This document shows positions 36,333-62,258 of a stretch of DNA of 64,000 nt, in pieces. Position 1 is the first letter of the stretch, and each line of letters begins with the position of its first letter. The position numbers and the translations under genes were made by a program. Under the pieces are notes generated by a model, which was not told the origin of the DNA, searched no databases, and worked only from the letters and a program-made list of their open reading frames with translations. Source of the stretch: Mauremys mutica (taxonomy: Eukaryota; Chordata; Testudines; Geoemydidae); assembly GCF_020497125.1 (NCBI RefSeq), contig NC_059080.1:68678618-68742617 (forward strand), given 5' to 3'.

Positions 36333-36626
36333 CAGGGCCGCCCAGAGGATTCAGGGGGCCTAGGGCCCTCCGCCGCCAAATTGCCGCCGAAGACCCGGTA
36401 CTTCAGCAGCGGGTCCCAGGGCGGAAGGACCCCCCGCCGCCGAATTGCCGCTGAAGACCCAGAGCGGAAGAAGCTCCAGGGGCCCGGGCCCCGCGAGAGC
36501 TTTCCAGGGCCCCCAGAGTGAGTGAAGGACCCTGCTCCAGGCACCCCAGAAAACTCTTGTGGAGGCCCCTGTGGGGCCCAGGGCAAATTGCCCCACTTCC
36601 CCCCCGCCCACCCCCGGGCAGCCCTG
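36333..36626. mobile_element. hAT-type MITE with perfect 8-bp target duplication
   Basis: TIRs CAGGGCCGCCCAGAGG and GGGCAGCCCTG. CATTAGGC is repeated at 36325-36332 and 36627-36634. It shares its ends with the element at 57178. Confidence 0.9.
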
Positions 36627-41499: not shown

Positions 41500-42780
41500 G
41501 GTCAGGCTAAGACACTCACCCTGGGTGTGTGTGTTCAGTCTCATGTGTTCTCTGTCACAGGTGCTACTGTTACTGCCTGGAGCTGGCTAACTTCCTGGTT
41601 TGAGGGGGCTTTGGCCCTTCCCTTACATGTTGATGGCATCTATGGCACTGTAACAAGGAGGAAGTATTATACTGGGAAATGCACATTAATCTTAACATTG
41701 GCTGACAGCCCTGAGGATCCTGACAGCCCTGTTAATACCACTTGGGTCATTTGCAAGCTAAACAAATAGGCATCTTATGAGCCTGGTGGAGTGCAGCAGT
41801 CATGGTTACACATTAGAGTTGTTTGAAAGTTACAATTTTTTCATTTTACAGGCACAGCAAAGGAGATGCAGCTCAGCAAGAGAGGGACAAAGGCACTTTA
41901 AACAATCTTTATGCCCTTGGGTTTCTGTATTGCTCTGGGAGCCAATATACAACCCAGCATAAACTAGGACAGCTAGAGGATGCTTTAATTTATGGCAGCC
42001 TCCTCAGGGCTGCTTATGGACTGTTCCACAGTCTGGAGCAGCTCAGAATCGCTGTACCAATCTCCTCTCTCATCTCTGAAATGCCCCCAGTTCCAGAACA
42101 ACTGAGGGGGCAGCCAGTGGAGAGGCAGTAAGGACAGGGATTTGGGGACAGACAATGTTCCATAATGTTTTACTTTATTAGCAGTATCAACCAAAATGAG
42201 TATTTTTGCACGTTTTCAATACAAATGCCACCATTGTTCAATACATGGCCCATTTTTGCTTATTTTCACTCAGAAATGCTCTTCCCCCCTCCAAAATGTG
42301 CATACTAGTGACATTTTCTGAAAAAAATGGACCCATTTAGAGGCAAATGCAAAAACCCTTGCATTTCAAGTAGTTTGACATTTGTCACACACACTGATTC
42401 TCAAACTCTTTCTTCATATGGACCAAATGTTAATATAGAGAGAGTCTCATGGATGCATTCTGCTCCTTCTATGAGTGATCATGCAGACCCTTTCATCTTC
42501 CTTTCATGATTACAGAACATCCCTGTGAAAACTATGTGGAACACTAATATTAGGAATGTATTTTTAGCAACACTTTAATGCGTTTTAGCTTTTGGGAATA
42601 AGGAGGAGGGGGAGCCAGAACTAAGTGACTGGCCAGCTGCGTGGATACCTAGCAAGTACCCCATACTCTCTGAAGACAAACCAAAACCCCAGGTTTAAAT
42701 ATACTCAAACTTTGGCAAATCTGAATCCAAATTTTTCACTCTAGGTCTGTTTCTAGTTTAAACACAGATGTCGACAAGAC
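41500..42780. other. Upstream flank, no gene recognised
   Basis: Mixed AT-rich sequence. The 113- and 102-codon frames near 41428-42131 show no domain or homology I recognise. Confidence 0.4.
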
Positions 42781-42787
42781 CAAGAGT

Positions 42788-43048
42788 CAGGGACGGCTCT
42801 AGGCATTTTGCCGCCCCAAGCACGGCAGGCAGGCTGCCTTCGGCGACTTGCCTGCGGGAGGTCCCCGGTCCCACAAATTCGGTGGCAGCCTGCGGGAGGT
42901 CCCCCGAAGCCGCGGGACCAGCGGACCCTCCACAGGCATGCCGCCGAAGGCAGCCTGCCTGCCGCCCTCGCAGTGACCGGCAGAGCGCCCCCCGCGGCTT
43001 GCTGCCCCAAGCACCCACTTGGCGTGCTGGTGCCTGGAGCCGCCCCTG
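42788..43048. mobile_element. hAT-type MITE with perfect 8-bp target duplication
   Basis: TIRs CAGGGACGGCTCTAGG and CCTGGAGCCGCCCCTG. CCAAGAGT is repeated at 42780-42787 and 43049-43056. Same family as the copy inside the R2-like element at 49888. Confidence 0.93.
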
Positions 43049-43766
43049 CCAAGAGTGTTTCCACCAAATTAGCTTGAAATGGTTTTCAGTTGTATTTAAA
43101 ACCCAGTTTGGGTAGCACAGTTCCCAGCTCACTGTAGGTAAAGCCTTGGAATTATGCTGCCAGAAAGCAGCCTTCTTCCTTCACTTTCTGGTTGCCATGG
43201 TGCACTGTCAGTATAAGATCATGTAGAAGAGGGCAGCCACCTCTAGCCCAGATAAGTAATCACTATTTTTCTAATTAATTAATGGTCTTATATACTTGTA
43301 CCTATTATAAAGTAAATTATTAACACGTGTTCAGGTATCTAAAGAAAACATCATGCATCATGCCTGTTAGTTATTTTGTATCAGCACTGATTGATTTTGT
43401 ATGTAGGCTAAAATTAATTAGCCAAATCCTGAGGTCCTTACTTAGACAAAAAACTCCAGTGACACAGAGGTTTTGCCTTAGTAAGGATGAGAGGATTTCA
43501 CCCTGAATTTGTACAAAGGTCTGAATTGAATATATGTCTTGTTACTATTTGAATTCATTTGTATGAAGGTGTGTTTATATTAAATTTTGGTGCACATATG
43601 TATATAAAAGAAAACTTCATACTCATATCTAATATGTTACACGGCTATACTTAGAACCAGATAGCTTTGTCAGACGAGATCTAGTCATTTTGAAGGGACA
43701 GGGTTAAAGTCACATACAGACACTAATAAGACTACAGAAAATGTCAGCCATTTCTATTTTTTATAC

Positions 43767-44863
43767 TGGTACTAGAAAAGATTCAGAAAAGGGCAACTAA
43801 AATGATTAGGGGTTTGGAGAGGGTCCCATATGAGGAAAGATTAAAGAGGCTAGGACTCTTCAGCTTGGAAAAGAGGAGACTAAGGGGGGATATGATAGAG
43901 GTACATAAAATAATGAGTGATGTGGAGAAAGTGGATAAGCAAATGTTATTTACTTATTCCCATAATACAAGAACTAGAGGTCACCAAATGAAATTAATAG
44001 GCAGCAGGTTTAAAACAAATAAAAGGAAGTTCTTCACGCAGCACACAGTCAACTTGTGAACTCCTTACCTGAGGAAGCAGCAAAGAATCCTGTGGCACCT
44101 TATAGACTAACAGACGTTTTGCAGCATGAGCTTTCGTGGGTGAATACCCACTTCTTCAGATGCAAGTGGTGGAAATTTCCTACAGCAAAAAAACTTTAGG
44201 ACCAGACTTCAAAGAGAAACTGCTGAGCTCCAGTTCATCTGCAAATTTGACACCATCAGCTCAGGACTAAACAAAGACTGTGAATGGCTTGCCAATTACA
44301 GAACCAGTTTCTCCTCCCTTGGTTTTCACACCTCAACTGCTAGAACAGGGCCTCATCCACCCTGATTGATCTAACCTCGTTATCTCTAGCTTGCTTCTTG
44401 CTTGCTTATATATACCTGCCCCAGGAAATTTCCACCACTTGCATCTGAAGAAGTGGGTATTCACCCACGAAAGCTCATGCTGCAAAACGTCTGTTAGTCT
44501 ATAAGGTGCCACAGGATTCTTTGCTGCTTCTACAGAACCAGACTAACACGGCTACCCCTCTGATACTTACCTGAGGAGGTTGTGAAGGCTAGGACTATAA
44601 CAGCGTTTAAAAGAGAACTGGATAAATTCATGGTGGTTAAGTCCATAAATGGCTATTAGCCAGGATGGGTAAGGAATGGTGTTCCTAGCCTCTGTTTGTC
44701 AGAGGATGGAGATGGATGGCAGGAGAGAGATCACTTGATCATTGCCTGTTAGGTTCACTTCCTCTGGGTCACCTGGCATTGGCCACTGTCGGTAGACAGA
44801 TACTGGGCTAGATGGACCTTTGGTCTGACCTTATGCTCTTACGGTCGTTCTTATGTTCTTATT
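43767..44863 (+). mobile_element. 5'-truncated CR1, split by a fold-back element
   Basis: Nearly identical to the last 600 bp of the full-length CR1 at 51155-55480, including ATGATTAGGGGTTTGGAGAG and the coding text for [20 protein letters not shown]. Coding is broken by the insertion at 44076-44566. The 3' tail is TTCTTATGTTCTTAT. Confidence 0.9.
44076..44566 (+). mobile_element. Fold-back element, 491 bp, with 11-bp target duplication
   Basis: TTACCTGAGGA occurs at 44065-44075 and 44567-44577. Arms of about 106 bp (44076-44181 and 44422-44529) are near-perfect inverted repeats, separated by about 240 bp of unrelated sequence, followed by a 37-bp tail ending CTACCCCTCTGATAC. It has no coding capacity. 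Variable-length target duplications and a constant 3' end suggest reverse transcription-mediated insertion; a Penelope-like or SINE-like identity is possible but not shown. Confidence 0.85.
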
Positions 44864-44869
44864 TCACTT

Positions 44870-46110
44870 ATAGCAAAATATCTCGTCATGATGGAAAACT
44901 TTGACATGTTATCAAATTCAAAAGGGAAAAAAAATCAAAGTAATATGGGAAAATTGATTCAAATACAAGTCTAAAACTGAAAAGATAGGGTGTGGTTTTG
45001 AAGGACAGTGTCTATCCACTATCTAATTTTGGAGAATGCTTACTTTTTGGTACCTATGAATGCTGCCATAGACCAGGAGGCAATTCTTTATTCAAAGTAA
45101 AAAATGTTTCAACCCCCTTGCATTTTCTATAAAAGTAAAAGTCAAAAAGTATCAGTGATTATAATGAGAAGCCTGTATAATTTATGTGCGTTTTGAGACA
45201 TTGATAGAGAATACTTGAATTTGAAGAGTATTTGTGCAAGAAGTGGGGGAGTGAGATTTTCTTTCCTTTAGACTGTAATAAAATTTTCAGTACCTCGCAA
45301 CCCCCTAATTGCCTACATGACTCCCCAGGGACATGAACCACTGGTTGAGAATAACATACTCCAGACTACTGACAAAATATACTATATATGTATACACACA
45401 GCAGCTATTTAAAAAAAATAAAACCCAACAACAAGTAATCCAATCTGAGGCCAAATCCATCGCTCATGGGGTACCTTAACTTGAATGGAGTTTCTCTGAT
45501 TTACACTGGTGTACATGAGACCAAGATTTGACCCCAAACCATTTGGCTGAGTTTTGGATGAGGATAAGATTAAAAAGTTTTCCACTCTGTCTCTTAATCT
45601 GTAAGCACAGAGGACTGTTAGCTACTATGCTTTTACTCATTTACAGGAATCAGATAACATCACTTATCAGCTAAATTCTTATTTATCTGACGCAATCTAA
45701 CTAGAAAGTATTAGTGACATGGGTTATAATAGGCCTGTAAATGAAAACACCAATGTGGGACACCTGAACACAGCAATAAGAATGATGTTAACAGAGATAA
45801 GAATCTTTTCTTTTTTAGGGTTCATACTCAATACAAAGCTGGAGTGAGCAATATCCCCTAGGTTTTTTGAAGGCTAATTGGCTCATCTGTGTTTGGCATA
45901 GCCAAGGATCAGTGCATAACAGAAGATCCGTTACTAAACAGTGGTTTCCCGAAATAGGTTGAAATGCATTAATGGGTTATTAGCAGAATATGTGTGTATA
46001 ACTGTAGTGAGCGTACATTTAAAAGAAGCTTAGTCCCTTTTCAGAAGATTTTTATGGCTCAATCAGATATAGGCACTGCTTCAAACCTGGAACTGATAAA
46101 GTCCATCTTG
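44870..46110. other. Intergenic AT-rich sequence
   Basis: No exon or recognisable repeat; short frames only. Confidence 0.45.
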
Positions 46111-46116
46111 TGTGAC

Positions 46117-46470
46117 AGGTTTCAGAGTGGTAGCTGTGTTGTTGTTTTTTGCTGATACAGACTGAGGAGTCCTTATGGCATCTTAGAGACTAACACATTT
46201 ATTTGAGCATAAGCTTTTGTGGGCTAAAACCCACTTCATCAGATGCATGGAGTGAAAAATACAGTAAGCAGAATATATATTAGAGCACATGAAAAGATGG
46301 AAGTTGCCTTACCAAGTGGGGGGTCAGTGCTAATGAGCCAATTCAATTAAAGTGGAAGTGGTCCATTGGCTTCGTTAGTACTACAAAAGTAATTTTCCCT
46401 CCCTTGGTATTCACCCCTTCTTGTCACCTTTTGAGAATAGGCCGCTTCCATCTTAACTGAATGTGATCAT
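46117..46470 (-). repeat. Diverged fold-back repeat, reverse orientation
   Basis: GGTTTCAGAGTGGTAGCTG, then GATACAGACTGAGGAG, then AGCTTTTGTGGGCTAAAACC, then CACTTCATCAGATGCATGG match, with changes, the tail and arm of the 44076 family. The outer boundary at the right is uncertain. Confidence 0.55.
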
Positions 46471-46794
46471 TGACTCCCAATAGCAACAATGATGTTCCAT
46501 TTAATAAAGTTCCAGAGATGGGTATTTATTGCATCAAAACACTTCAATAGCAATCACTTCATCATGAAGGTTATCTATAATAGTTATGTGGTAGTGATTT
46601 CCAACAAGTATTCCACATTGGGTGACCAGCTGTCTATTGCAGAGGGAGAGTTTGTTTCTGGATTCTATCACAGAGTTGATGGAGAACAACAGACTAAGAA
46701 TGAAAAAACAATGTTGGATTCCAAATGGTACCATCAGATTATGGGAGAGAAAAAAAGAGTCACGATACAGAATGGATGCACTTGAAAGTCAGAG

Positions 46795-47819
46795 TCAAGT
46801 CAGTGAAGAGAGGAGGAAATGGGCAAAAGAGGGAAAAAATGTCTTGAACAAGCAATCAAGAGGGGCCGTCAACGGTGGAATAGTATGGCTTATTGCATTA
46901 AGGAAGCCTATGAAAGACATGACCAGAAATGTATATTTGAGACATGAAATGACAGAGTTCATGATTCTAAGGAATGGTAGGAGGGAGAACAGCAAAATAA
47001 AGACAATGGATTTCAAGAAGGCAAACTTTAGCAAACTCAGGGAGTTGGTAGGTAAGATCCCATGAGAAGCAAATGTAAGGGGAAAAACAATAGAAGACAG
47101 TTGGCAGTTTTTCAGAGAGACATTATTAAGGGCACAAGAGCAAACTATCCCACTGCATAGGAAAGCTAGGAAGTATGGCAAGAAACCACTCTGGCTTAAC
47201 CAGGATATCTTCAATGATCTAAAAATAAAAAAAGAGTCCTACAAAAAGTGGAAACTAGGTCAAATTACAAAGGATGAAAATAAACAAATAAGTATATAGG
47301 GACAAAATTAGAAAGGCCAAGGCACAAAATGATATCAAACTAGCTAGAGACATAAAGGATAACAAGAAAACATTCTACAAATACATTAAGAGCATGAGGA
47401 AGACCAAGGACAGGGTAGGACCATTACTCAATGGGGGGGGCGAATAATATCAGAAAATGTGGAAATAGTACAGGTGCTTTATGACTTCTTTGTTTCAGTT
47501 TTCACTAAGAAGGTTGGTGGTGACTGGACGTCTAACATAGTGAATGCCAGTGAAAATGAGGTAGGATCAGAAGAGGCTAAAATAGGGAAAGAACAAGTTA
47601 AAAATTACTTGAACAAATTAGGTGTCTTCAAGTCACCAGGGCCTAATGAAATGCATCCTAGATTACACAAGAAGCTGACTGAAGAGATATCTAAGCCATT
47701 GGTGATAATCTTTGAAAAGTCATGGAAGACAGAAGAGATTCCAGAAGACTGGAAAAGGGCAAATATAATACTAATCTATAAAAAGGGAAATGAGGACAAC
47801 CCAGGGAATTATAGACCAG
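46795..47819 (+). pseudogene. Old CR1 ORF2 remnant, left part
   Basis: Damaged frames encode [17 protein letters not shown], then later KSPGPNEMHPRLHKKL and NPGNYRPV, the linker and first reverse-transcriptase blocks of a CR1. Stops and frameshifts occur between 47065 and 47459. The frame is cut at NYRPV by the insertion at 47820 and resumes at 55851. Confidence 0.85.
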
Positions 47820-48385
47820 TGTGACAAAGCTTCCTCTCCGCCTCAGTGTCTCCTGCGCTTCCGTTTAGCGGCAGGCTGGGGTATTCCTCTTTTCCCTCAT
47901 AATTTTCCCTATGCCCCTGGGTTTACAGTCCACACCCTGTTGGAGCAGAGTTCCTTCTGGCCTCCCTGATGGGGAGAGTGGGAGGGGAGCCTCTCAGTCT
48001 CTGGTAGCCCTTCCGGGCATGATGGCAACAGACTAGACACCCAGTTCAGTCTCTCCCCTCTGGCAGAGTCTCTTCCCTCAGACCTACGTGGCTGTCCACC
48101 CTGTTGGGCAGGGATTCTCCTGCCCTTCACCTCTGTACCTGTGTGGCTTCTCTCCTAATGCTTGTCAGTGTCTGCACTGCCCAGCTCTCCAGTAGCTCAC
48201 CTTCCTCCCTCAGCTCCTATCGCGTAGCCCTATATCTGGCTGGAGGGGAGGCTTTTAACAGATTCTGGCAGGCCCTTGATTGGCTCCAGATGTCCTAATT
48301 AACCTAGAGTAACCCCTGTTCAGCTACCAAGAGAAAAGGGACCTGCTTATCCTGGGACTAATATCTCTGCCTTCCAGCACTCTTC
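47820..48385 (+). repeat. LTR-like left segment
   Basis: Pyrimidine-rich sequence from TGTGACAAAG to about CTTCCAGCACTC. The matching right end, TCTGGCCTGACCCCATCACA, is at 55827-55846. It looks like a solo LTR later opened by nested insertions. Confidence 0.55.
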
Positions 48386-48428
48386 TCGGATCTTAGGAGA
48401 ACAACCGAGACTAAGGAGAATAAATAAA

Positions 48429-48509
48429 CAATGTTGGAGTCCAAATGGTACAGATTATGGGAGAGAAATAAGAGGCACGATGCAGAATGGATGCACTTGA
48501 AAGTCATAA
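48429..48509 (+). repeat. Duplicate of 46706-46795
   Basis: AACAATGTTGGAGTCCAAAT, then GATTATGGGAGAGAAATAAG, then CAGAATGGATGCACTTGAAA differ from the earlier copy at only a few bases and one 4-bp gap. Confidence 0.8.
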
Positions 48510-48612
48510 CTCAAGCCTGACCCGAGATGTACAGTACCTTCCTTCTTAACTTCACTTAACTGGTCGGTGAACGGAGGAGCCATTAGCTCCATCCAGAAAA
48601 GCTTCATTTTGT

Positions 48613-49395
48613 GTGAAGGCTGTTACGAACACAACTTTGTCCTTCAGACTGCCACCCACTCCGGCCAGGGGGGCATGGAGGCAATGTGCCATAGCATGGC
48701 TCAACCTGGCTAATGCTTTTGGATTGATGCCCCACCAGCATGTTTTTGCAACGCTGCAAGAGATCAGGATGCCTGAAAATTTTTTCCAACTAGTCTGGGA
48801 ATTTTATGAAGGCTCCATGGAAGGAGAGACACCTGAAATTCCTATCCATAGTGGCGTGAAGCAAGGCTGCCCCCTGAGCCCCATCGTTTTCAACTTAGCC
48901 ATGGAGCCGCTCATTCAAGCGATCTCCAGCAGTCTAGGCGGTTTCAATCTATACGACAACAGAGTGAATATCCTGGCCTACACAGACGATCTGGTCCTGA
49001 TTGCAGACAACCCCAAGAGTCTCCAACAAATGCTTGACATCACCAGCCAGGCTGCCAACTGGATGGGACTCTGCTTCAGTGCCAAGAAGTGTGCATCCCT
49101 TCATATTGATGGCAGTAGAAGGGATTTGGCCCAGGCAACGTCTTTTCAGATCCAGGGTGAACCTATGATCTTCCTTGAGGATGGACAGGCATACCAACAT
49201 CTTGGCACGCTGACGGGTTTCTGCGTCCAGCAGACACCTGAGGATACCATCATGGAGATCCTACGAGATGTGGCCAAGATCGACTCCTCCCTATTGGCAC
49301 CATGGCAGAAGATCAAAGCCTTGAACACTCTCCTGATCCCCTGTATCTTATTCATCCTGAGGGGATCTGCCGTGGCGAAGGTACCTCTGAACTAG
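48613..49395 (+). pseudogene. R2-like reverse transcriptase domain
   Basis: One open stretch of 260 codons with GVKQGCPLSPIVFNLAMEPL, then LAYTDDLVLIA (the catalytic box, here YTDD, at 48979-48990) and CFSAKKCASLHIDGS. It ends at a stop after AVAKVPLN, beyond which the same protein continues (RASNEPVYISHRQGGANIP), so the stop is a disabling mutation. Confidence 0.8.
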
Positions 49396-49887
49396 GCAGA
49401 CAGCACCATCCGGCAGCTGGTAAAGGAGTGGATGTTTCTTCCCCAGAGGGCCAGCAATGAACCAGTGTACATCTCGCACAGGCAGGGTGGCGCCAACATC
49501 CCTCGAATGGGTGATCTGTGTGACGTTGCTGTGATCACTCACATCTTCTGCCTTCTGACGTGCCTGGACACCAAGGTGAGGACCATTGCGGAGAGTGCTC
49601 TGCAGGATGCCGTCAAGAAGCGAATCGCCAGGACCCCCTCCAACAAGATGTCACCACCTACCTGAGCGGCTTGCTGGCAGGTGAATTTGGAAGAGATGGG
49701 GGAGACTTTGCTTCGCTCTGGACTTGTGCCTGCAACACTACGTGATGACTGGAGAAGTGTATCAGCTGCCACTGGATGTGGTGCGAGGAATGCCAGGAGC
49801 TGGGAGTCCTGGTGCCACAAGTGAAGACTACAGATCACTCTATCATCACTCTGAGAGCTAGAACCATGCTGGAGAGAACCCCGAAGG
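49396..49887 (+). pseudogene. R2-like linker region after the in-frame stop
   Basis: Continues with RASNEPVYISHRQGG and GDLCDVAVITHIFCLLTCLD, then frames shift near 49660. Matches the region between the reverse transcriptase and endonuclease of R2-type proteins by general layout. Confidence 0.65.
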
Positions 49888-50326
49888 CAGGGCCGGCTCC
49901 AGAGCCCAGCGGGGCAAGCACCTGCCTGGGGCGGCCCTTTCCCGGGGGGGCGGCAGGCTGGGCCGGCGGACCTGCCGCAGTCATGCCTGCGGGAGGTCCA
50001 CCGGAGCCCCGGGAGGACCGGACCTGCCGCAGGCATGACTGCGGAGGGGATGCTCGGCCGGCGGCTCCAGTGGACCTCCCGCAGGCATGACTGCGGACGG
50101 TTCGCTGGTCCCGCGGCTCGGCTGGACCTCCCGCAGGCATGACTGCGGCAGCTCAACCGGAGCCGCCGGACCTGCGAACCGCCCGCAGCTGCGGGAGGTC
50201 CAGCCGAGCCGCGCGACCAGCGGACCCTCTGCAGTCATGCCCGCGGGAGGTCCGCTGCTCCCGCGGCTCAGGGGCGCCTCCCGGGCATGACTGCTTGGGG
50301 CGGCCAAAAACCTAGAGCCGCCCCTG
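49888..50326. mobile_element. hAT-type MITE with perfect 8-bp target duplication
   Basis: TIRs CAGGGCCGGCTCCAGAG and CTAGAGCCGCCCCTG. CCCGAAGG is repeated at 49880-49887 and 50327-50334. GC-rich interior with several CTCCCGCAGGCATGACTGCG-like tandem words. Confidence 0.92.
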
Positions 50327-50334
50327 CCCGAAGG

Positions 50335-51049
50335 ATGCCATCCACTGCTAATATGTGGAAAATCTGAAACGGAAGCCGGACCAGGGCAAGGCATTCGAGG
50401 TGACGTGCAAGTGGGATGCCAGCAACCACTTCCTCCCCAGGGGCAGCTTCACCCAATTTGCTGACTGGAGGTTCATCCACAGGGTCTGCCTCAGCTACGT
50501 CCCACTGAACAGAGCCGTCCACCACGGGAATCGGGACAAGCAATACAGAAAGTGTGGCTACACCAACGAAACAGTACCCCACATCCTTTGTAGCTACAGG
50601 CCCCATTCGAGAGCTTGTCAGCTGCAACACAACACCATCCAAGATCACCTGGTCAGAGCCATCCTGCCACCCATGGGGAAGGTTGCCGTAAACTCCGCCA
50701 TCCCAGGAACCAACAGCCAACCGCAACCGGACATTGTCATCACCAACAAGGACCGGAAGAAGATCATCATGGTGGACATCACAGTGCTGATCGAGAACAG
50801 GACCCCGGCCTTCCACAATGCCCGAGCTTGAAATATGCCCCTCTAGATGAAACCTTGAGAGTTAAGGTCCAGACACACACACTGATCGTCAGAGCCTTGG
50901 GCACATGGGACCCCAGTAATGAGCAAGTGCTGAGAGAATGCGGAATTGGTCAATGCTATGCCTGGCTGATGCGGCAACTCATGGTGTCGGATGCCATCAG
51001 GTGGTCAAGGGACATCTACATAGAACACATCACTGGACATTGGCAATAG
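50335..51049 (+). pseudogene. R2-like zinc-knuckle and restriction-like endonuclease region
   Basis: Contains QYRKCGYTNETVPHILC, where the usual first Cys of the C-x2-C knuckle reads Tyr, and later QPDIVITNKDRKKIIMVDIT, which matches the PD...D core of the restriction-like endonuclease of R2-group elements. A frame change near 50830 separates this from the C-terminal SDAIRWSRDIYIEHITGHWQ. Confidence 0.75.
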
Positions 51050-51335
51050 CAGGAGGGATGAGCTGGAGTGCCAATGAGAAGCGCAGTCAGGAAAGTAACT
51101 GAAATAATTTCCTCATGTATTGTATTTACTAAATGGACAAACAACCTTTTGCGAACAGGGGCTGCTAACAGGGAGTTTCGCAAGGGAGTTTGGAAGGGGA
51201 GTGGGAAGGGAGCAGGAGTCCCTCGCTGGCCGTAACCCCTTCCCTGTGGCCCCCCCCTAAAATCCTAAAACCTATAAACCAAACTACATTCCAAAACTAC
51301 TTTCCGTAAACCACCCTTTCACTAACTAGGAGACA

Positions 51336-52259
51336 ATGCAGGCAGAAGCCCAGCAGCAGAGTGGGGGCTATCCAGTTTATTGCGCTGACTGTCGCATGTA
51401 TGATTACCTGCCCTGTGGGCGGGTGGCGTATGTGTGCAGTCGGTGCAAGGAGCTCCTGGCCCTCAGAGACCATGTACGGACTTTGGAGGCCAGGGTGGCG
51501 GAACTGGAGGAGCTGAGAGAGGCAGAGAGGTATGTTGATGAGGCTTTCCGGGACACTGTAGAATTGTCCCACCTCCGCTTAGACAGCTCCTGTGCTGTTG
51601 AGGAGGAAGAAGGGCCCAGGGAAGTAGAGCAGTCAATGGGAGCAGAGGGAAACCTTCCCGTAGTTGGGACCCTCCTTCCAGATGGTGCTGGGGTTGCCTC
51701 TCGCACTGAGGTTGCCTCTCCGGGGGAGGGAACTCCAGTTTCTAGGAAAAGGCAGGTGTTAGTAATGGGAGATTCGATTATTAGAAATGTAGATAGCTGG
51801 GTCTGTGATGACCGGGAGAACCGTATGGTGACTTGCCTGCCTGGTGTGAAGGTTGCGGATCTCTCGAGGCATCTAGATAGACTTATGTGTAGTGCTGGGG
51901 AGGAGCCGGTGGTCGTGGTACATGTAGGTACCAATGACATAGGGAAGGGTAGGAGAGATGTCCTGGAAGCCAAATTTAGGCTGCTAGGGAAGAGACTGAA
52001 ATCCAGGACCTCTATGGTGGCATTTTCAGAAATGCTCCCAGTTCCACGCGCAGGGCCAGGTAGGCAGGCAGAGCTTCAGAGTCTCAATGCGTGGATGAGA
52101 CGATGGTGTAGAGAGGAGGGGTTCACTTTCATTAGGAACTGGGGAAACTTCTGGGATGGGAGGAGCCTATACAGGAGAGATGGGCTCCACCTAATCCAAA
52201 GTGGAACCAGACTGCTGGCACTAAACATTAAAAAGGTTGTAGAGCAGTTTTTAAACTAG
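51336..52259 (+). CDS. CR1 ORF1 protein with esterase-like domain
   Basis: 307 residues. The N-terminal part (about residues 10-45) has a Cys-rich finger ([14 protein letters not shown], then VCSRCKELL), followed by a coiled-coil-like stretch ([16 protein letters not shown]). From about residue 135 an SGNH-type esterase domain begins with [14 protein letters not shown], where Ser of GDSI is the likely nucleophile, continues [12 protein letters not shown] and ends near [12 protein letters not shown] with the Asp-x-x-His pair. This layout is known for CR1 ORF1 proteins, which bind RNA in the ribonucleoprotein. Complete, no stop. Confidence 0.88.
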
Positions 52260-52294
52260 GAGATGGGGGAAAGCCGACTGCTGCAGAGGAGCGT

Positions 52295-55270
52295 GTGGAT
52301 CGGACACCGACTTCTCTTAGGGGAGAGTCTGATGATAGAGAATCTCCAGGTTATAGTCAGGAGCAGAGGAATGAGAAGTATAATGTAAGGGCCGGATCAG
52401 ATGATAAACAGTCACATAAAAAAGAATCTGGCACATCAGAAAAAGGCAGGCTAATAAACAGGGACAAGTTTTTAAAGTGCTTGTACACAAATGCCAGAAG
52501 TCTAAATAATAAGATGGGTGAACTAGAGTGCCTCGTGATAAAGGAGGATATAGATATAATAGGCATCACAGAAACCTGGTGGACTGAGAGCAATCAATGG
52601 GACACAATCATTCCGGGGTACAAAATATATCGGAAGGACAGAACAGGCCGTGCAGGGGGAGGAGTGGCACTATATGTTAAAGAAAGTGTAGATTCAAATG
52701 AAGTAAAAATCTTAAGCGAATCCACAGGTTCCATAGAGTCTCTATGGATAGAAATTTCATGCTCTAGTAAAAATATAACAGTAGGGATCTATTATCGACC
52801 ACCTGACCAGGACAGTAATAGTGATGATGAAATGCTAAGGGAAATTAGAGAGGCTATCAAAATTAAGAACCCAATAATAGTGGGGGATTTCAATTATCCC
52901 CATATTGACTGGGAACATTTCACTTTAGGACGAAATGCGGAGATAAAATTTCTGGATACTTTAAATGACTGCTTCATGGAGCAGCTGGTACGGGAACCCA
53001 CAAGGGGAGAGGCGACTCTAGATTTAATCCTGAGTGGAGCGCAGGAGCTGGTCCAAGAGCTAACTATAGCAGGACCGCTTGGAAATAGTGACCATAATAC
53101 AATAGCATTCAACATCCCTGTGGTGGGAAGAACATCTCAACTGCCCAACACTGTGGCCTTTAATTTCAAAAGGGGGAACTATACAAAAATGAGGGGGTTA
53201 GTTAGACAAAAGTTAAAAGGTACAGTGACTAAAGTGAAATCCCTGCAAGTTGCATGGGCCCTTTTTAAAGACACCATAATAGAGGCCCAACTTCAATGTA
53301 TACCCCAAATTAAGAAAAACAGTAAAAGAACTAAAAAAGAGCCACCGTGGCTTAACAACCATGTAAAAGAAGCAGTGAGAGATAAAAAGACTTCCTTTAA
53401 AAAGTGGAAGTCAAATCCTAGTGAGGCAAATAGAAAGGAGCACAAACACTGCCAACTTAAGTGCAAGAGTGTAATAAGAAAAGCCAAAGAGGAGTTTGAA
53501 GAACGGCTAGCCAAAAACTCCAAAGGTAATAACAAAATGTTTTTTAAGTACATCAGAAGCAGGAAGCCTGCTAAACAACCAGTGGGGCCCCTTGATGATC
53601 AAAATTCAAAAGGAGCGCTTAAAGATGATAAAGTCATTGCGGAGAAACTAAATGGATTCTTTGCTTCAGTCTTCACGGCTGAGGATGTTAGGGAGATTCC
53701 CAAACCTGAGCTGGCTTTTGTAGGTGACAAATCTGAGGAACTGTCACAGATTGAAGTGTCACTAGAGGAGGTTTTGGAATTAATTGATAAACTCAACATT
53801 AACAAGTCACCGGGACCAGATGGCATTCACCCAAGAGTTCTGAAAGAACTCAAATGTGAAGTTGCGGAACTATTAACTAAGGTTTGTAACCTGTCCTTTA
53901 AATCGGCTTCGGTACCCAATGACTGGAAGTTAGCTAATGTAACGCCAATATTTAAAAAGGGCTCTAGGGGTGATCCCGGCAATTACAGACCGGTAAGTCT
54001 AACGTCGGTACCGGGCAAATTAGTTGAAACAATAGTAAAGAATAAAATTGTCAGACACATAGAAAAACATAAACTCTTGAGCAATAGTCAACATGTTTTC
54101 TGTAAAGGGAAATCGTGTCTTACTAATCTATTAGAGTTCTTTGAAGGGGTCAACAAACATGTGGACAAGGGGGATCCGGTGGACATAGTGTACTTAGATT
54201 TCCAGAAAGCCTTTGACAAGGTCCCTCACCAAAGGCTCTTACGTAAATTAAGCTGTCATGGGATAAAAGGAAAGGTCCTTTCATGGACTGAAAACTGGTT
54301 AAAGGACAGGGAACAAAGGGTAGGAATTAATGGTAAATTCTCAGAATGGAGAGGGGTAACTAGTGGTGTTCCCCAAGGGTCAGTCCTAGGACCAATCCTA
54401 TTCAATTTATTCATAAATGATCTGGAGAAAGGGGTAAACAGTGAGGTGGCAAAGTTTGCAGATGATACTAAACTACTCAAGATAGTTAAGACCAAAGCAG
54501 ATTGTGAAGAACTTCAAAAAGATCTCACAAAACTAAGTGATTGGGCAACAAAATGGCAAATGAAATTTAATGTGGATAAATGTAAAGTAATGCACATTGG
54601 AAAAAATAACCCCAACTATACATACAACATGATGGGGGCTAATTTAGCTACAACGAGTCAGGAAAAAGATCTTGGAGTTATCGTGGATAGTTTTCTGAAG
54701 ATGTCCACGCAGTGTGCAGAGGCGGTCAAAAAAGCAAACAGGATGTTAGGAATCATTAAAAAGGGGATAGAGAATAAGACTGAGAATATATTATTGCCCT
54801 TATATAAATCCATGGTACGCCCACATCTCGAATACTGTGTACAGATGTGGTCTCCTCACCTCAAAAAAGATATTCTAGCACTAGAAAAGGTTCAGAAAAG
54901 AGCAACTAAAATGATTAGGGGTTTGGAGAGGGTCCCATATGAGGAAAGATTAAAGAGGCTAGGACTCTTCAGTTTGGAAAAGAGAAGACTAAGGGGGGAC
55001 ATGATAGAGGTATATAAAATCATGAGTGATGTTGAGAAAGTGGATAAGGAAAAGTTATTTACTTATTCCCATAATACAAGAACTAGGGGTCACCAAATGA
55101 AATTAATAGGCAGCAGGTTTAAAACAAATAAAAGGAAGTTCTTCTTCACGCAGCACACAGTCAACTTGTGGAACTCCTTACCTGAGGAGGTTGTGAAGGC
55201 TAGGACTATAACAATGTTTAAAAGGGGACTGGATAAATTCATGGTGGCTAAGTCCATAAATGGCTATTAG
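52295..55270 (+). CDS. CR1 ORF2 protein: AP endonuclease and reverse transcriptase
   Basis: 991 uninterrupted residues. An apurinic-type endonuclease comes first, with [43 protein letters not shown] and SDHNTIAFN. The reverse transcriptase follows with [45 protein letters not shown] and the catalytic FADD (54455-54466). The C-terminal part has [20 protein letters not shown]. The endonuclease nicks the target and the polymerase copies the element's RNA there. All expected catalytic boxes are present; I cannot test activity. Confidence 0.92.
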
Positions 55271-55489
55271 CCAGGATGGGTAAGAATGGTGTCCCTAGCC
55301 TCTGTTCGTCAGAGGATGGAGATGGATGGCAGGAGAGAGATCACTTGATCATTGCCTGTTAGGTTCACTCCCTCAGGGGCACCTGGCATTGGCCACTGTC
55401 GGTAGACAGATACTGGGCTAGATGGACCTTTGGTCTGACCCGGTATGGCCTTTCTTATGTTGTTCTTATGTTCTTAACCTAATTCTCAA

Positions 55490-55826
55490 TTACTGAGGGA
55501 CAATCTCCTCTCATTGATATATTTTGCTTTCTACATCCAAATCTCCTTACAACTTTTCATGAGTGATGTACCCAATTATTCAGATTCTAATATCTAAACT
55601 GTATTGTTAAATCTATTCACCTAAATTTGGGTAATTGCTGATTATGTAGTCTATGTATCATATGACTTTTAAAACTAACTTTATATTTGTGGATAATCTA
55701 AGCACTATACCCAGATGTACAGACACTTTTCCCCCAACCTATGGATTATATACTTTTTTTTAACATTAGCTTTAATAAAATTTTAAAATCTGTTCTTATC
55801 AGTTTAACAGTACCCTCCTGTAGCTG
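55490..55826 (+). other. AT-rich segment between the CR1 and the LTR-like right end
   Basis: AT-rich, with CTTTAATAAAATTTTAAAAT near 55770. It could be part of another LTR or of the interrupted element; I cannot place it. Confidence 0.35.
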
Positions 55827-55850
55827 TCTGGCCTGACCCCATCACACCAG

Positions 55851-56642
55851 TCAGCTTAACTTCTGTACCTGGAAAGATAATGAAACAAATAATTAAGTAA
55901 TCAATTTGCAGACATCTAGAAGGTAATAAGGTGATAAGTAACAGTCAGCATGGATTGTCAAAAACAAATTATGTCAAATCAACCTGATAGCTTTTTTTTG
56001 AGAGGGTAACAAGCCTTGTGGATAGGGGGAAAGTGGTAGACGTGGTATATCTTGACGTTAGTAAAGCTTTTGATACTGTCTTGCATGACCTTCTCATAAA
56101 CAAACTAGGGAAATGCAACCTAGATGGAGCTACTATAAAGTGGGTGCAAAACTGGTTGGATGTACTAGCAGGAGTGTTGTAAGCAAGACATGAGAAGTAA
56201 TTCTTCTTCTCTACTCTGTGCTGATTAGGCCTCAACTGGCGTATTGTGTCCAGTTCTGGGCACCACATTTCAGGAAGGAAGTTGACAAATTGGAGAGAGT
56301 CCAGAGAAGAGCAACAAAAACGATTAAAGGTCTAGAAAACATGACCTATGAGGAAAGATTGAAAAAACTGGGTTTGTTTAGTCTGGAAAAGAGAAGACTG
56401 AGAGGGAACATGATAACAGTTTTCAAGTACATAAAAGGTTGTTACAAGGAGGAGGAAGAAAAATAGTTTTTCTTAACCTCTGAGGTTAGGATAAGAAGCA
56501 ATGGGCTTAAACTGCAGCAAGGGATGTTAGGAAGTTTTTCCTAATGGCCAGCCTAACTGTCAGAGTGGTTAAGCACTGGAGTAAATTGCCTAGGAAGGTT
56601 GTGGAATCTCCATCATCAGAGATTTTTAAGAACAGTTTACAC
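55851..56642 (+). pseudogene. Old CR1 ORF2 remnant, right part
   Basis: Directly after the 8-kb insertion the text for LTSVPGKIM follows on from NYRPV at 47819. It continues with YLDVSKAFDTVLHDLL, a deletion, then [19 protein letters not shown] and [18 protein letters not shown], up to the insertion at 56643. Several stops and one internal deletion make it non-functional. Confidence 0.85.
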
Positions 56643-57807
56643 CAATGATTTTAAAACTTTTTTTCTGGTGACTCAGTGGAAGAAAATTGTTGATGACCAT
56701 GACCCAGTGGAGCTGGCGATGAAGGGCTTGGGATGTGGAAGGGGGTCAGGGCTGGGGCAGAGGGTTGGGGTGTGGGGGTGAGGGCTGCGGGGTGGGGCCA
56801 AGAATTAGGGGTTCAAGGTATGGGAAGGGGCTGTGGGCTAGGACAGGGGGTTGGGGTGCAGAAGGGGGTCAGGGCTCTGGGTGCAGGCTCTGGGATGGAG
56901 CCAGAGATGAGGGGTTTGGAGTGCAGGAAGGGGCTCCAGGTTTGGGGGGGCTTGGGGATGGGACAGGGGATTGAGGTACAGGGTTAGGGCACAGGCTTTT
57001 ACGGGTGGCTTCCGGTCAGCGGCATAGTGGGAGTGCTAAGGCAGGCTTCCTGCCTGTCTTGGCACCGTGGGCCACACTGCGCCTTGGAAGCAGCCAGCAG
57101 CAGGTCCGGCTCCTAGGTGGAGGTGCACAAGAGAATCCGCACGGCTCTCACCCACAGGCATCGCCCCTTCCCCCAGCCAGGGCCGCCCGGGGGGGGGCAA
57201 GAGGTGCAATTTGCCCCGGGTCCCGCCAGGGCCCCCACGAGAGTTTTTCGGGGCCCCTGGAGCGGGGTCCTTCACTCGCTCTGAGGGGCCCGGAAAACTC
57301 TTGCAGGGCCCGGCCCCCCGGAGCTTCTCCCGGTCTTTGCCAGCGGGGGGTCCTTCCACTCTGGGGCGGAAGGACCCCCCGCCGGCGAATTACTGCCGAA
57401 GTGGGACCCACCGCCGAAATGCAGCCGGGTCTTCGGCGGTATTTCGGCAGCGTGGGGGGCCCTTCCGTTCCGGGACCTGCCGCCGAAGTGCCCCGAAGAC
57501 CCGCGGCTGGGGCCCCCTGCCGCCGAATTACCGCCGAAGACCCGGCTGCGCTTCGGCGGCGGGTCCTGCTTCGGTGGCAGGGGGCCCCCGCTGCAGGCCT
57601 TTGGGGCACTTCGGCGGCGGGTCCCGGAACGGAAGGGGCCCCCCCGCCGCCGAATTACCGCCAAAGCGGGCCCCCCCCTGCCGCCGAAGACCCCAGGCCC
57701 CCGGAATCCTCTGGGCGGCCCTGCCCCCAGTTCCCATTGCCCACGACCCAGTGCCTTACATTCCTCAACCCAGTCCTAGGTCGCGACCCACAGTCTGAAA
57801 ATCACTA
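56643..57807. mobile_element. Large degenerate hAT-like element
   Basis: Ends CAATGATTTTAAAACTTTTT and CAGTCTGAAAATCACTA are eroded inverted repeats of the CAGTGGTTCTCAAAC class. The flanks GTTTACAC and GGTTAGAC agree at 6 of 8. G-rich left part; a second hAT MITE lies inside (57178-57723). Confidence 0.65.
57178..57723. mobile_element. hAT-type MITE nested in another hAT-like element
   Basis: TIRs CAGGGCCGCCCGGG and CTGGGCGGCCCTG. Flanks CCCCCAGC and CCCCCAGT match at 7 of 8. GC-rich interior with repeated GCCGCCGAA and CTTCGGCGG words, which hold long open frames on several strands. The 267-codon frame here is not a gene. Confidence 0.85.
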
Positions 57808-57815
57808 GGTTAGAC

Positions 57816-57912
57816 AACACCTGTCAGTAATGGTTTAGATAATACTTAGTCCTGCTACGAGTCCAGGGGACTGGGCTAGATGACCTCTCAAGGTCCCTTC
57901 CAGTTCTTTGAT
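57816..57912 (+). repeat. 3' end of the old CR1
   Basis: CTGTCAGTAATGGTTTAGAT, then GGGCTAGATGACCTCTCAAG and GTCCCTTCCAGTTCTTTGAT are a typical CR1 3'UTR, continuing the copy cut at 56642. Confidence 0.8.
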
Positions 57913-58029
57913 ACATTCTCACCGCTTCCACCAGTTAAGAACAAAAATGGAAAATACTGCCAGGATATTGAAACACAACTTAAGTGTTGGCATGAGCATT
58001 TTTATGAATTAATGGAACAGGTAATAATT

Positions 58030-58208
58030 GGAGATATACTGATCTCCTAGAAATGGAAGGGACCTTGAAAGGTTATTGAGTCCAGCCCCCTGCCTTCACT
58101 AGCAGGACCAATTTTTGCCCCAGATCCCTAAGTGGCCCCCCTCAAGAATTGAACTCACAACCCTGGGTTTAGCAGGCCAATGCTCAAACCACTGAGCTAT
58201 CCCTCCCC
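58030..58208 (-). repeat. tRNA-derived SINE, minus strand
   Basis: Same element as 19885-20057: AACTCACAACCCTGGGTTTA, then CCACTGAGCTATCCCTCCC at the head side, and GGAAGGGACCTTGAAAGG at the 3' side. Slightly diverged. Confidence 0.85.
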
Positions 58209-58209
58209 C

Positions 58210-59640
58210 CAACCAAGATGTAAACTACAATTTAATCCAGAAATGAACCCAGCAGAAAACTGGTCAGTGACAGCAGAGGAAATGATGCTTGAGGTCAAAC
58301 AGTTACAAAATGATAAATGGTCTTGACAAGATTTAGTTCACCGGCTTCATTGAGTTGTCTTAAAAGTTTGGGAAAGCAGCCACATTCCAGAAGGTTGGAA
58401 AAGGGGCTGCATCATCCCTTTTTTTTAAAAAAGGAGAGGAATTAGATTGCTCAAATTATAAGGGAATAATACTGCTGTCAGGCTCAGGGAAGGTGTTTAT
58501 GATCTTATTATTGAACCAACTGAAATACTATCTTAACCCAGAATTGAGAAACAATCAGTGTGTTTTCTGTACAGGTCGATCTACAATCCATGTTATATAT
58601 GCTCTGCAGAATGTTACTGTAAACCGACAAAAGAAAGTTAACATTGCGTTTATAGATGGCAGATGCTTTTGACTCAGTAATGTGGATACTTCTACCCCGT
58701 ATGAGGTGCCGGAGGACTTAGTGTGCTGCTGGTAGAGGAACTGGTAGAGGAACTGTACCATGGTACATTTAGCTGTGTGAGGACCAACATTGTTGTATTA
58801 GATTGGTTTTCAGAAGACTCAAGAATATACTAGGGATGCATTTTCTCACCTGTGTTATTTAATGTTCTAATCTTAGGACAAAGCTGATTGAGGCCACAGT
58901 AGGAGGTCTGAAAGTTAAAGATTCATCTTTAGAGGATCCTGAGTACATGGATGATATAGCCTTACTGACCAACTACAGCTAATGCTGGAAGAGCTGCAAA
59001 AAACTGCAGAATCAATGGGACTTAAGATCAGCAATGATAAAACCAAAGCTATTTATTTTCTATAAAATGGAAATGAATGACCTGCCAGTGCTGCATAAAG
59101 ATGACAATGACAGTGAATGGATGAATAATTTTATTTATCTGGGGAGTCAGTTGACAGCAGGAGCGTCTATAAGAAAAGAAGTAAAATGCTGAATTGGTCT
59201 TGCCTCAATGGCATTTCAGCATCTTCAGAGGTATCTGTCTGGATGGCAGGATGTCTGTATGACAACTAAGGTGCGAGTTTTCAATGTGATGGTGATGACA
59301 ACAGCCGACGAGAGATATCGTTTTCAGTGTCAAAGGTTTTATGGTGTATTCTTAATATCTGTTGGTTTGATTTTGTCACAAATGAGGAGATAATTAGATG
59401 ACCCCAGCAAGTTGCAGTCTTCCAACAGTTGAGAACAAGATGACTGCAATGTTCATGTCCAACATGCAGAAGTAACCTTTTTACAGAAGGTTTACAAAGC
59501 TGAGCTTGAAGGAAGTAGAGAATAAGGCTGACCATGAATGAGGTTGGAAGGTGCAATTTTAAGGGATTTAAGAAGCCTAAATCCTCCCACACTGACTCTT
59601 GCTGAAGAAAAAAGACTTACAAGGACTGTTCAAGATGGAA
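58210..59640 (+). pseudogene. Degenerate RTE-like reverse transcriptase
   Basis: Broken frames hold IPEGWKRGCIIPF, then YLNPELRNNQCVFCTGRS, a catalytic-type YMDDIALL (YMDD at 58944-58955), then FIYLGSQLTAG and LASMAFQHLQRYLSGW. The order and the YLGS block fit the RTE clade of non-LTR elements, though other clades share it. Many stops; no function expected. Confidence 0.6.
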
Positions 59641-59814: not shown

Positions 59815-60095
59815 AAAATCATAGAATATCAGAGTTGGAAGGGACCTCAGGAGGTCATCTAGTCCAACCCCCTGCTCAAAGCAGGACCAGTCCCCAACTA
59901 AATTATCACAGCCAGGGCTTTGTCAAGCCTGACCTTAAAAACCTCTAAGGAAGGAGATTTCAGCACCTCCCTAGGTAACCCATTCCAGTGCTTCACCACT
60001 ATCCTAGTGAAAAAGTTTTTCCTAATATCCAACCTAAACCTCTCCCACTGCAACTTGAGACCATTACTCCATGTTCTGTCATTGGGTACCATTAA
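59815..60095 (-). repeat. CR1 3' region, minus strand
   Basis: AATCATAGAATATCAGAGTTGG, read in reverse, is the ATTCTATG-type tail. It is followed by the C-terminal text complementary to [12 protein letters not shown] and [15 protein letters not shown]. Truncated at the 5' side. Confidence 0.85.
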
Positions 60096-60126: not shown

Positions 60127-62258
60127 GCCTGGTCTACACTAGGCGTTTAAATCGGTTTTAGGAGCGTAAAACCGATTTAACGCCACAACCGTCCACACTA
60201 GGAGGCACCTTTTATCGATTTTAATGGCTCTTTAAACCGGTTTCTGTACTCCTCCCTAACGAGAGGAGTAGCGCTAGTATCGGTATTACCATATCGGATT
60301 AGGGTTAGTGTGGCCGCTGATCGACGGTATTGGCCTCCGGGCGGTATCCCACAGTGCACCACTGACCGCTCTGGACAGCAATCTGAACTCGGATGCAGTG
60401 GCCAGGTAGACAGGAAAAGCCCCGCGAACTTTTGAATATTTCCTGTTTGCCCAGCATGGAGCTCCGATCAGCACGTGTGGCGATGCAGTTAAAAATCAAA
60501 ATAAAGAAAGAGCTCCCGCATGGACCATGCGGACGTGATCGCTGTAAGGGCAGGCAAATCTGTTCTATCAGCGCTCCGTTACAGAAGACGAAATTCAAAA
60601 TCATTTTTTTAAAATCTCCAGACAGACGCCATAGCAGGGGCTCAGCGCACTGCTGCGTGACAAGCGTAACGGAAAGCCAAAGAATCAAATGGACGCTCAT
60701 GGACTGGAGGACTCAAGCTATCCCACAGTTCCTGCAGTCTCTGAAAAGCATTTGCATTCTTGGCTGAGCTCCAAATGCTTCTAGGGTCAAACACCGTGTC
60801 CGCGGTGGGTCAGGGCATAGCTCGGCAATTTACGCACCCCCCCACCCACCCCCAGAAGTGAAAGGGAAAACAATCCTCTCTTGACTCTTTTACATGTCAC
60901 CCTATCTTTACTGAATGCTGCAGATAGACGCGATGCTGCAGCCGTCAACACTAACATCCTCACTCCCCCCCTCGCCATGGGTGGCTGATGGTGCAATACG
61001 ACTGATACCCGTCCTCGTCATCAGTCTATTGGCACATGGGGCAGTGCAAAAGGGCTGGTAACCATGCCGACTAGCATCAGTGAGGTCAATCAAGGGCGCC
61101 TGGCCCTAATTTTTCCTTGTAGATGGTGCAGTATGGCTGGTAACCATCCTCATAATAGCAACAGGGGGCTGAGCTCCATCAGCCCCCACCCTTCATGTGT
61201 AAAGAAAAGATTCAATTGCCCCTGGACTAGCAGAGGGATGCTGGGCTCCTCTTCTCCACACTCCTTACTGTCCTGTCTGGACTATCATAGCAGCTGGAAG
61301 CTGCCTTCCACTCATTTCTCACTAACAAGTCACTGTGTCTTATTCCTGCATTCTTTATTAATTCATCACACAAGTGGGGGTGCAATGCTATGGTAGCCCA
61401 GGAAGGCTGGGGGAAGAACGGAATCAACAGGTGGGGTTGTTGCAGGAGCACCCTCTGTGAATAGCATACAGCTCATAATTTCTGTGGGATCTGACACAGA
61501 GCAGCTGTGCTCTCTGGCTCTATGATACAGTGGTTCTCTAGTACACTTGCCCATATTCTAGGCAGGACTGATTCTATTTTTAGATACCAAAAAGGAGGGA
61601 TTGACTCAGGGAGTCATTCCCAATTTTGGCTTTTGCGCCCCTGGCTGATCGGCCAGGGGCACTTATGACAGCAGCAAATGGCACAGTGCAAAAGGACTGG
61701 TAACCATGACCATCTTATTACCAATTTATGGTATGGTAGATGGTGCAGTATGGCTAGTAACCATCTCTGCTATCATGCAAAAGCAAAAGCATGCTTCTGT
61801 GTAGCGCTGCTGAATCGCCTCTGTGAGCGGCATCTATTACACATACGGTGACAGTCACAAAAGGCAAAACAGGCTCAATGATTGCCATGCTATGGCATCT
61901 GCCAGGGCAATCCAGGGAAAAAAGCCGCGAAATGCTTGTCTGCCGTTGCTTTCCCAGAGGAAGGAGTGACTGACGACATTTACCCAGAACCACCCGCGAC
62001 AATGATTTTTGCCCCATCAGGCACTGGGATCTCAACCCGGAAGTTCCAAGGGGCGGGGGAGGCTGCGGGAACTATGGGATAGCTACGGAATAGCTACCCA
62101 CAGTGCAACGCTCCAGAAATCGACACTAGCCTCGAACCGTGGACGCACACCACCGATTTAATGTGTTTAGTGTGGCCGCGCGCACTCGATTTTATAAAAT
62201 CTGTTTTACAAAACCGGTTTATGCAAATTCGGAATAGTCCCGTAGTGTAGATGTACCC
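60127..62258. mobile_element. 2.1-kb Harbinger-like non-autonomous element
   Basis: Starts GCCTGGTCTACACTAGG and ends TAGTGTAGATGTACCC, with TAAA on both sides (a 3-4 bp duplication, as in Harbinger-type insertion). Subterminal hairpins (AAATCGGTTTTAGGAGC and AAAACCGATTTAACGCC) lie at the left. Interior frames (about 130 codons at most) look like leftovers, not a complete transposase or DNA-binding protein. Family identification is by ends only. Confidence 0.6.

Follow-up and report, generated by a model that had tools for sequence, protein, structure and literature searches.

Transposons nested in an old CR1 element of the turtle Mauremys mutica, with a U2 small nuclear RNA tail on a Utopia-like element

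The window analysed here is a stretch of 64,000 nucleotides from the turtle Mauremys mutica (NCBI RefSeq assembly GCF_020497125.1, contig NC_059080.1, positions 68,678,618 to 68,742,617 of the forward strand), and all positions are counted from its first letter. It contains an old copy of CR1, a long interspersed nuclear element (LINE), which is interrupted by an 8-kb unit with the ends of a long terminal repeat (LTR) and again, further downstream, by a hAT-like element. Inside the 8-kb unit are a Utopia-like element, a hAT-like miniature inverted-repeat transposable element (MITE) and a full-length-type CR1. The whole locus very probably consists of ordinary transposon insertions, now dead, that are stacked in the old CR1. 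Its features, with strand (a dot where none is assigned) and basis, are listed below; ORF, RT, UTR, TIR and snRNA stand for open reading frame, reverse transcriptase, untranslated region, terminal inverted repeat and small nuclear RNA.

46681..46799, +, 120-bp repeat, copy lying upstream of the old CR1 (alignment)
46937..47819, +, old CR1 ORF2, left piece, ending NYRPV (tblastn, best eight matches 43-44% identity)
47816..47819,., CCAG target-site duplication, left (sequence)
47820..48384, +, putative LTR, 5' portion, starting TGTGACAAAG (TG...CA ends and 4-bp duplication)
48385..48533, +, segment at the Utopia 5' junction, from the LTR break to the ORF (contains the repeat 48396-48515)
48534..51058, +, Utopia-like ORF (RT part, linker, C-terminal region), 5'-truncated, frameshifted and interrupted by MITE 1 (homology)
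49888..50326,., hAT-like MITE 1, in the Utopia coding region (TIR 13/15, duplication CCCGAAGG 8/8)
51059..51147, +, presumed Utopia 3' UTR, first part (by position, from the end of protein homology to the presumed CR1 5' end)
51148..55475, +, full-length-type CR1 (possible 5-bp duplication AACCT at 51143-51147 and 55476-55480)
55476..55788, +, presumed Utopia 3' UTR, second part, ending AATAAAATTTTAAAA, with the CR1 duplication possibly occupying the first 5 bases (by position; the junction with U2 nt 39 follows)
55789..55807, +, U2 snRNA nt 39-57 tail, TCTGTTCTTATCAGTTTAA (exact match against Markov controls)
55808..55846, +, putative LTR, 3' portion, ending CCCCATCACA, with a possible Utopia target duplication in the first 9 nt
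55847..55850,., CCAG target-site duplication, right (sequence)
55847..56642, +, old CR1 ORF2, middle piece, opening with the second CCAG copy and carrying an internal deletion near 56160 (alignment)
56643..57807,., hAT-like non-autonomous element (TIR 11/15, duplication GTTTACAC/GGTTAGAC 6/8)
57178..57723,., hAT-like MITE 2, inside the hAT-like element (TIR 13/15, duplication CCCCCAGC/CCCCCAGT 7/8)
57808..57912, +, old CR1, right piece (3' end; match to an in-window CR1 paralogue and excised alignment)

The old element is, judging from its homology, a 5'-truncated CR1 LINE. Its RT and 3' pieces share 43-64% identity with a flatback-turtle CR1 ORF2 protein (P0039), RT homology thus placing it in CR1, and the endonuclease is absent. 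Reference residues 626-768 are missing near 56160 through a deletion, with nothing inserted there. The original prediction had this CR1 begin at 46795, which was not borne out, as tblastn with sea-turtle CR1 proteins detects homology from 46889 at the earliest and from 46937-46943 in the best eight matches. Degenerate LINE RT pieces (weak tblastn matches) right after the end of the old CR1, at 58201-58588, possibly represent a second old LINE.

The frame of the old CR1 ends with NYRPV at 47819 and restarts with LTSVPGK beyond the insert, whose two edges carry CCAG (47816-47819 and 55847-55850). When 47820-55846 and one CCAG were removed, the flanks gave a single 402-column tblastn alignment with residues 228-625 of P0039 at 46% identity, and two further CR1 references, P0047 and P0053, gave 401 columns each. 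With all three references tried, no gap occurs in the 60 columns flanking the join, and the rejoined flank DNA aligns with the complete CR1 of the window as one ungapped 131-bp block across it. The excision check therefore bears out the predicted 8-kb insertion between adjacent codons with a CCAG duplication, the rejoined flanks being contiguous against both CR1 proteins and in-window CR1 DNA.

The inserted unit (47820-55846) has the ends TGTGA...TCACA and a CCAG duplication identical in 4/4 positions, and TG...CA ends with a duplication of 4-6 bp are the marks of a solo LTR. Once the inner insertions are assigned, 565 bp on the left and 39 bp on the right are left over, so that the unit most simply looks like one solo LTR of about 600 bp, split by a later insertion. 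Turtle LTRs of such appearance exist. LTR-like ends had been predicted, and the TG...CA ends with CCAG stand; they would belong to one split LTR and not to two.

The element within the LTR was first called R2-like. Its frame 48571-49395 matches RT (PF00078, E 2.2e-23), for which R2 proteins are the best matches among solved structures (PDB). Of 4829 candidate proteins, 287 were matched at E<=0.001 by a 587-residue query concatenated from the open pieces. Among the best 120 of the 287, the top three are unnamed sea-turtle proteins, whose alignments cover 58-65% of the query at 65-70% identity; two proteins labelled R2 in their source show 34-36% identity. Homology starts at about 48534-48558, with isolated weaker hits from 48502, and ends at 51058; the copy is thus 5'-truncated within the RT, and its ORF contains at least two frame changes and one in-frame stop. 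The C-terminal region, where a Utopia element would have a restriction-like endonuclease, aligns with that of turtle and arthropod relatives. The N-terminal part is missing, and N-terminal zinc fingers are not visible because the copy is truncated and broken; the absence of an N-terminal Myb domain is the Utopia criterion used in PMC13188248.

Identity as R2, which targets 28S, was rejected because the flank is U2 and no ribosomal RNA family was matched. No 28S flank was found among the 22 Rfam matches to E 10 in 46000-58500; U2 was not among the 22 either, and all lie below the family gathering score, including the best ones, which are hairpins inside MITE 1 (mir-550, E 2.3e-05; MIR7526). Since its 3' end is directly followed by U2 nt 39-57, the element is, on present sequence grounds, better read as Utopia, a U2-snRNA-targeting LINE of the NeSL clade. 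Of the R2-like label the R2-type RT holds, and the remainder gives way to a Utopia-like element, truncated inside the RT and flanked by U2.

The 3' end of the Utopia-like element consists of an A/T-rich stretch and then, at 55789, the tail. Positions 55789-55807 are identical to U2 nt 39-57, or form a 20-nt exact match if nt 38 at 55788 is counted; the longest U2 match in 100 first-order Markov sequences of window size was 14 nt. The U2 reference sequence used is consistent with the U2 fragments given in PMC4640811. A junction at nt 39 is where U2 begins downstream of Utopia according to that paper. The tail is 19 nt long, near the 20-bp duplications in U2 described there for reptile Utopia families, and the LTR resumes after it. 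As U2 marks the Utopia 3' end, the 313 bp at 55476-55788 are taken as its 3' UTR, and the full-length CR1 would consequently lie inside Utopia, at level four. No second copy of this 3' UTR was found in the window beyond short matches with E 0.5 or worse.

A 20-bp target-site duplication was not found. There is a weak 9-bp candidate at a non-U2 site, as the 9-mer CAGTACCCT after the tail resembles CAGCACTCT at the 5' LTR break in 7/9 positions. Such a duplication, lying outside the U2 stretch, would put U2 within the insert. The missing 20-bp duplication does not exclude Utopia, because off-target junctions in crocodilians seldom show a recognisable duplication according to PMC4640811.

At the 5' junction of Utopia, between the LTR break and the ORF, 48396-48515 repeats 46681-46799 on the same strand, 1.7 kb apart, with 106/114 aligned bases identical when gaps are set aside. 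This 120-bp repeat was rejected as RT motif 0 of Utopia: an RT profile built from 41 of the best 120 of the 287 relatives gave 1.1 bits for the junction copy and 0.0 for the upstream copy, and the same profile reached 5.3 and 5.5 bits, respectively, in shuffle controls (300 each). In tblastn of 240 proteins against the repeat there were 27 hits at E<=0.1, two of which, at 0.006, had the right frame and order and one, at 0.002, the wrong strand. The repeat showed no Pfam match in four frames tried and no protein homologues for one frame tried, and a 24-mer from it had 0 hits in viral contigs.

The CR1 inside the presumed Utopia 3' UTR, as had been predicted for the 8-kb unit, is of full-length type and represents a fourth-level insertion. 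It extends from about 51148 to 55475, the ends being placed by eye and by AACCT, a 5-bp duplication short enough for chance. ORF1 (51336-52259) matches GDSL esterase, and the ORF2 frame (52232-55270) matches endonuclease and RT (PF03372, PF14529, PF00078); with APE endonuclease, RT and CR1 homology, the copy is a member of CR1. Neither frame has an internal stop. The 95% bound on its neutral decay is 2.2% from stops only; with frameshifts taken as 10-5% of substitutions, it would be 0.6-0.9%. Among the 120 relatives listed, a hawksbill-turtle protein has the highest identity (85% over 71%), consistent with a turtle origin. As no ATG precedes residue 95 of the ORF2 frame (52232-52516), an early frameshift is possible, the ORF2 start is uncertain, and the CR1 is not called active. 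In the same interval an alternative frame can be read directly after the ORF1 stop, which suggests either an early frameshift or an unusual start. A CR1 28-mer had 0 hits in prokaryote genomes.

Another copy of the 3' part of this CR1, 93-94% identical, lies at 43762-44861. A 492-bp insert (44075-44566) interrupts it; the insert shows a 10-bp duplication, TTACCTGAGG, at 44065-44074 and 44567-44576, and inverted arms of 113 nt at 44069-44181 and 44423-44535.

The remaining insertions are of hAT type, with terminal inverted repeats and 8-bp duplications as expected for hAT MITEs. The octamer flanking MITE 1 occurs in the window twice on the + strand, at both flanks of the MITE, and 0 times on the - strand. 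The hAT-like element that splits the old CR1 at 56643-57807 can be compared with an in-window CR1 paralogue (59831-60077), which is uninterrupted at this site: the left flank matches 60077-59929 and the right flank (57807-57907) matches 59930-59831, with a 2-bp overlap. The excised alignment retained both duplication copies and two element bases, which leaves a 9-nt gap. Both a hAT MITE within the R2-like element and a second split of the old CR1 by a MITE-bearing hAT-like element had been predicted, and both agree with these results.

Relatives of the MITEs occur elsewhere in the window, MITE 1 having one at 42788-43048 between perfect 8-bp repeats CCAAGAGT (at 42780 and 43049), and MITE 2 one at 36333-36626 between perfect 8-bp repeats CATTAGGC (at 36325 and 36627). 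A 2-kb unit at 60148-62221 with weakly matching inverted ends is possibly another DNA transposon.

A proposed history of the locus can be described as follows. The old 5'-truncated CR1, recognised by homology, would have been in place first. An LTR retroelement then entered between two codons of its RT, as indicated by the frame and the 4-bp duplication, and may have been reduced to a solo LTR. Subsequently, a 5'-truncated Utopia would have entered the LTR by target-primed reverse transcription, bringing the 19 nt of U2 that are seen at its end, probably copied from the 3' end of the RNA template. Later, a hAT MITE entered the coding part of Utopia, and a complete CR1 inserted into its presumed 3' UTR. 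In a separate line of events, the 3' end of the old CR1 was split by a hAT-like element, which in turn took up a second MITE.

Three lines of evidence support nesting at least four levels deep, as claimed in the original prediction: the continuous frame, the target-site duplications and, for the hAT site, the uninterrupted in-window paralogue. The seven insertions lie on two branches that share the old CR1, one of them four levels deep and the other three. One branch fixes the order old CR1, LTR, Utopia, then MITE 1 and the full-length CR1, and the other fixes old CR1, hAT, MITE 2; the two branches are mutually unordered, as are MITE 1 and the full-length CR1. The predicted age order of six or more element types is thus upheld within branches and is only partial, as nothing can be ordered between them.

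Several observations weigh against parts of this reading. The LTR label is based on the TG...CA ends and the 4-bp duplication; apart from short matches with E values of 0.5 or worse, no second LTR copy is present in the window, and an LTR 23-mer had 0 exact matches in viral contigs. None of the best 120 of the 287 relatives of the Utopia-like query carries the name "Utopia", and its C-terminal ORF piece matched no R2 among solved structures and no Pfam domain. The 7/9 Utopia duplication is equalled by 986/20000 random placements (about 5%), and is therefore a weak hint only. The duplication of the hAT-like element agrees in 6/8 positions only, and this reading does not account for the 120-bp repeat at the Utopia 5' junction.

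The alternative that the 8-kb unit is a single large LTR element with an R2-like and CR1 interior, or an assembly join, would account for TG...CA ends that enclose everything. However, the interior encodes LINE proteins (R2-type RT, CR1 endonuclease and RT), the LTR portion has no second copy in the window, and a perfect duplication surrounds the inner MITE; a join at 47820 or 55846 is disfavoured by matching CCAG at both ends and by the absence of N from the entire window. This alternative is therefore highly improbable. The preferred source of the U2 tail is an RNA template that extended into U2. Were the U2 stretch present beforehand, Utopia having inserted at a U2-like site within the LTR, the case would resemble the crocodilian junctions at which Kojima and Jurka (2015) found short U2-like sequences and proposed weakened specificity (PMC4640811). 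Here the match is exact over 19 nt and stops close to the length of the 20-bp reptile duplication, and the possible 9-bp duplication, weak as it is, would put U2 inside the insert; a U2-like target seems quite unlikely. It is unlikely, too, that a U2-derived tail has become fixed in the 3' UTR of this turtle Utopia family. Fish R2 families that carry 28S-derived 3' UTR sequence, and likewise one interpretation of R2Hm-B, offer a precedent (PMC5035012), but only one copy is seen here and its exact identity with U2 suggests no drift.

The 120-bp segment could tentatively be a patch copied from 1.7 kb upstream at integration, by repair or by template jumping of the RT. Its position, with the LTR break on one side and the Utopia ORF on the other, the same-strand copy nearby and the failure of the RT profile are in favour of a local patch, and template jumping by non-LTR RT is the subject of PMC8857657. 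The idea is attractive, but the segment may equally well belong to an unrecognised repeat family with other copies.

According to PMC4640811, Utopia is present in three turtle species, and few reptile copies are flanked by U2 genes. The copy described here is like those reptile elements in its R2-type RT, its U2 flank from nt 39, its occurrence in a turtle and the weak target specificity seen in reptiles, and unlike them in being 5'-truncated and broken, in lying within an LTR and in having U2 attached over exactly 19 nt. With the fish R2 families of PMC5035012 it shares target-gene sequence at the element 3' end, whereas here the sequence is U2 rather than 28S, identity is exact, and a single copy lies at a non-target site. 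A U2 tail at a non-U2 site is not described in the titles and abstract openings of the papers listed on Utopia in turtles and on Utopia and U2 snRNA; as short U2-like stretches at crocodilian off-target junctions are noted in PMC4640811, the tail adds to an observation already on record.

Deriving a relative chronology from nested insertions is already established at the scale of whole genomes (TinT), with 6,752-9,100 nested CR1s per crocodilian genome used for it by Suh et al. 2014 (PMC4316615), and this locus therefore adds one case. The principle of older CR1s interrupted by younger elements is the same, whereas here CR1, LTR, Utopia and hAT-type elements meet at one locus over four levels, in place of genome-wide counts. 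Given so many nested CR1s, and ongoing CR1 activity suggested for painted and sea turtles in the same source, neither the nest nor its young CR1 is surprising. The nest illustrates dating by insertion order cleanly, with method and element types already known; more unusual at this locus are the 120-bp repeat and the U2 tail of 19 nt at a target other than U2, and the tail matters more than the nest.

A rather improbable but instructive extension would be that turtle Utopia RNAs ending about 19-20 nt inside downstream U2 spread outside U2 genes, the same event having made the 5' 120-bp patch from 1.7 kb upstream. If so, off-target U2 fragments would arrive with the RNA instead of being selected in the target, and the RNA tail rather than the target would explain the apparently weak specificity. 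Such tails, if present inside the target duplications of other off-target copies, would reveal where Utopia RNA ends. They would also show how a gene-specific LINE spreads when it fails to hit its target, which would bear on R2-type gene-insertion tools.

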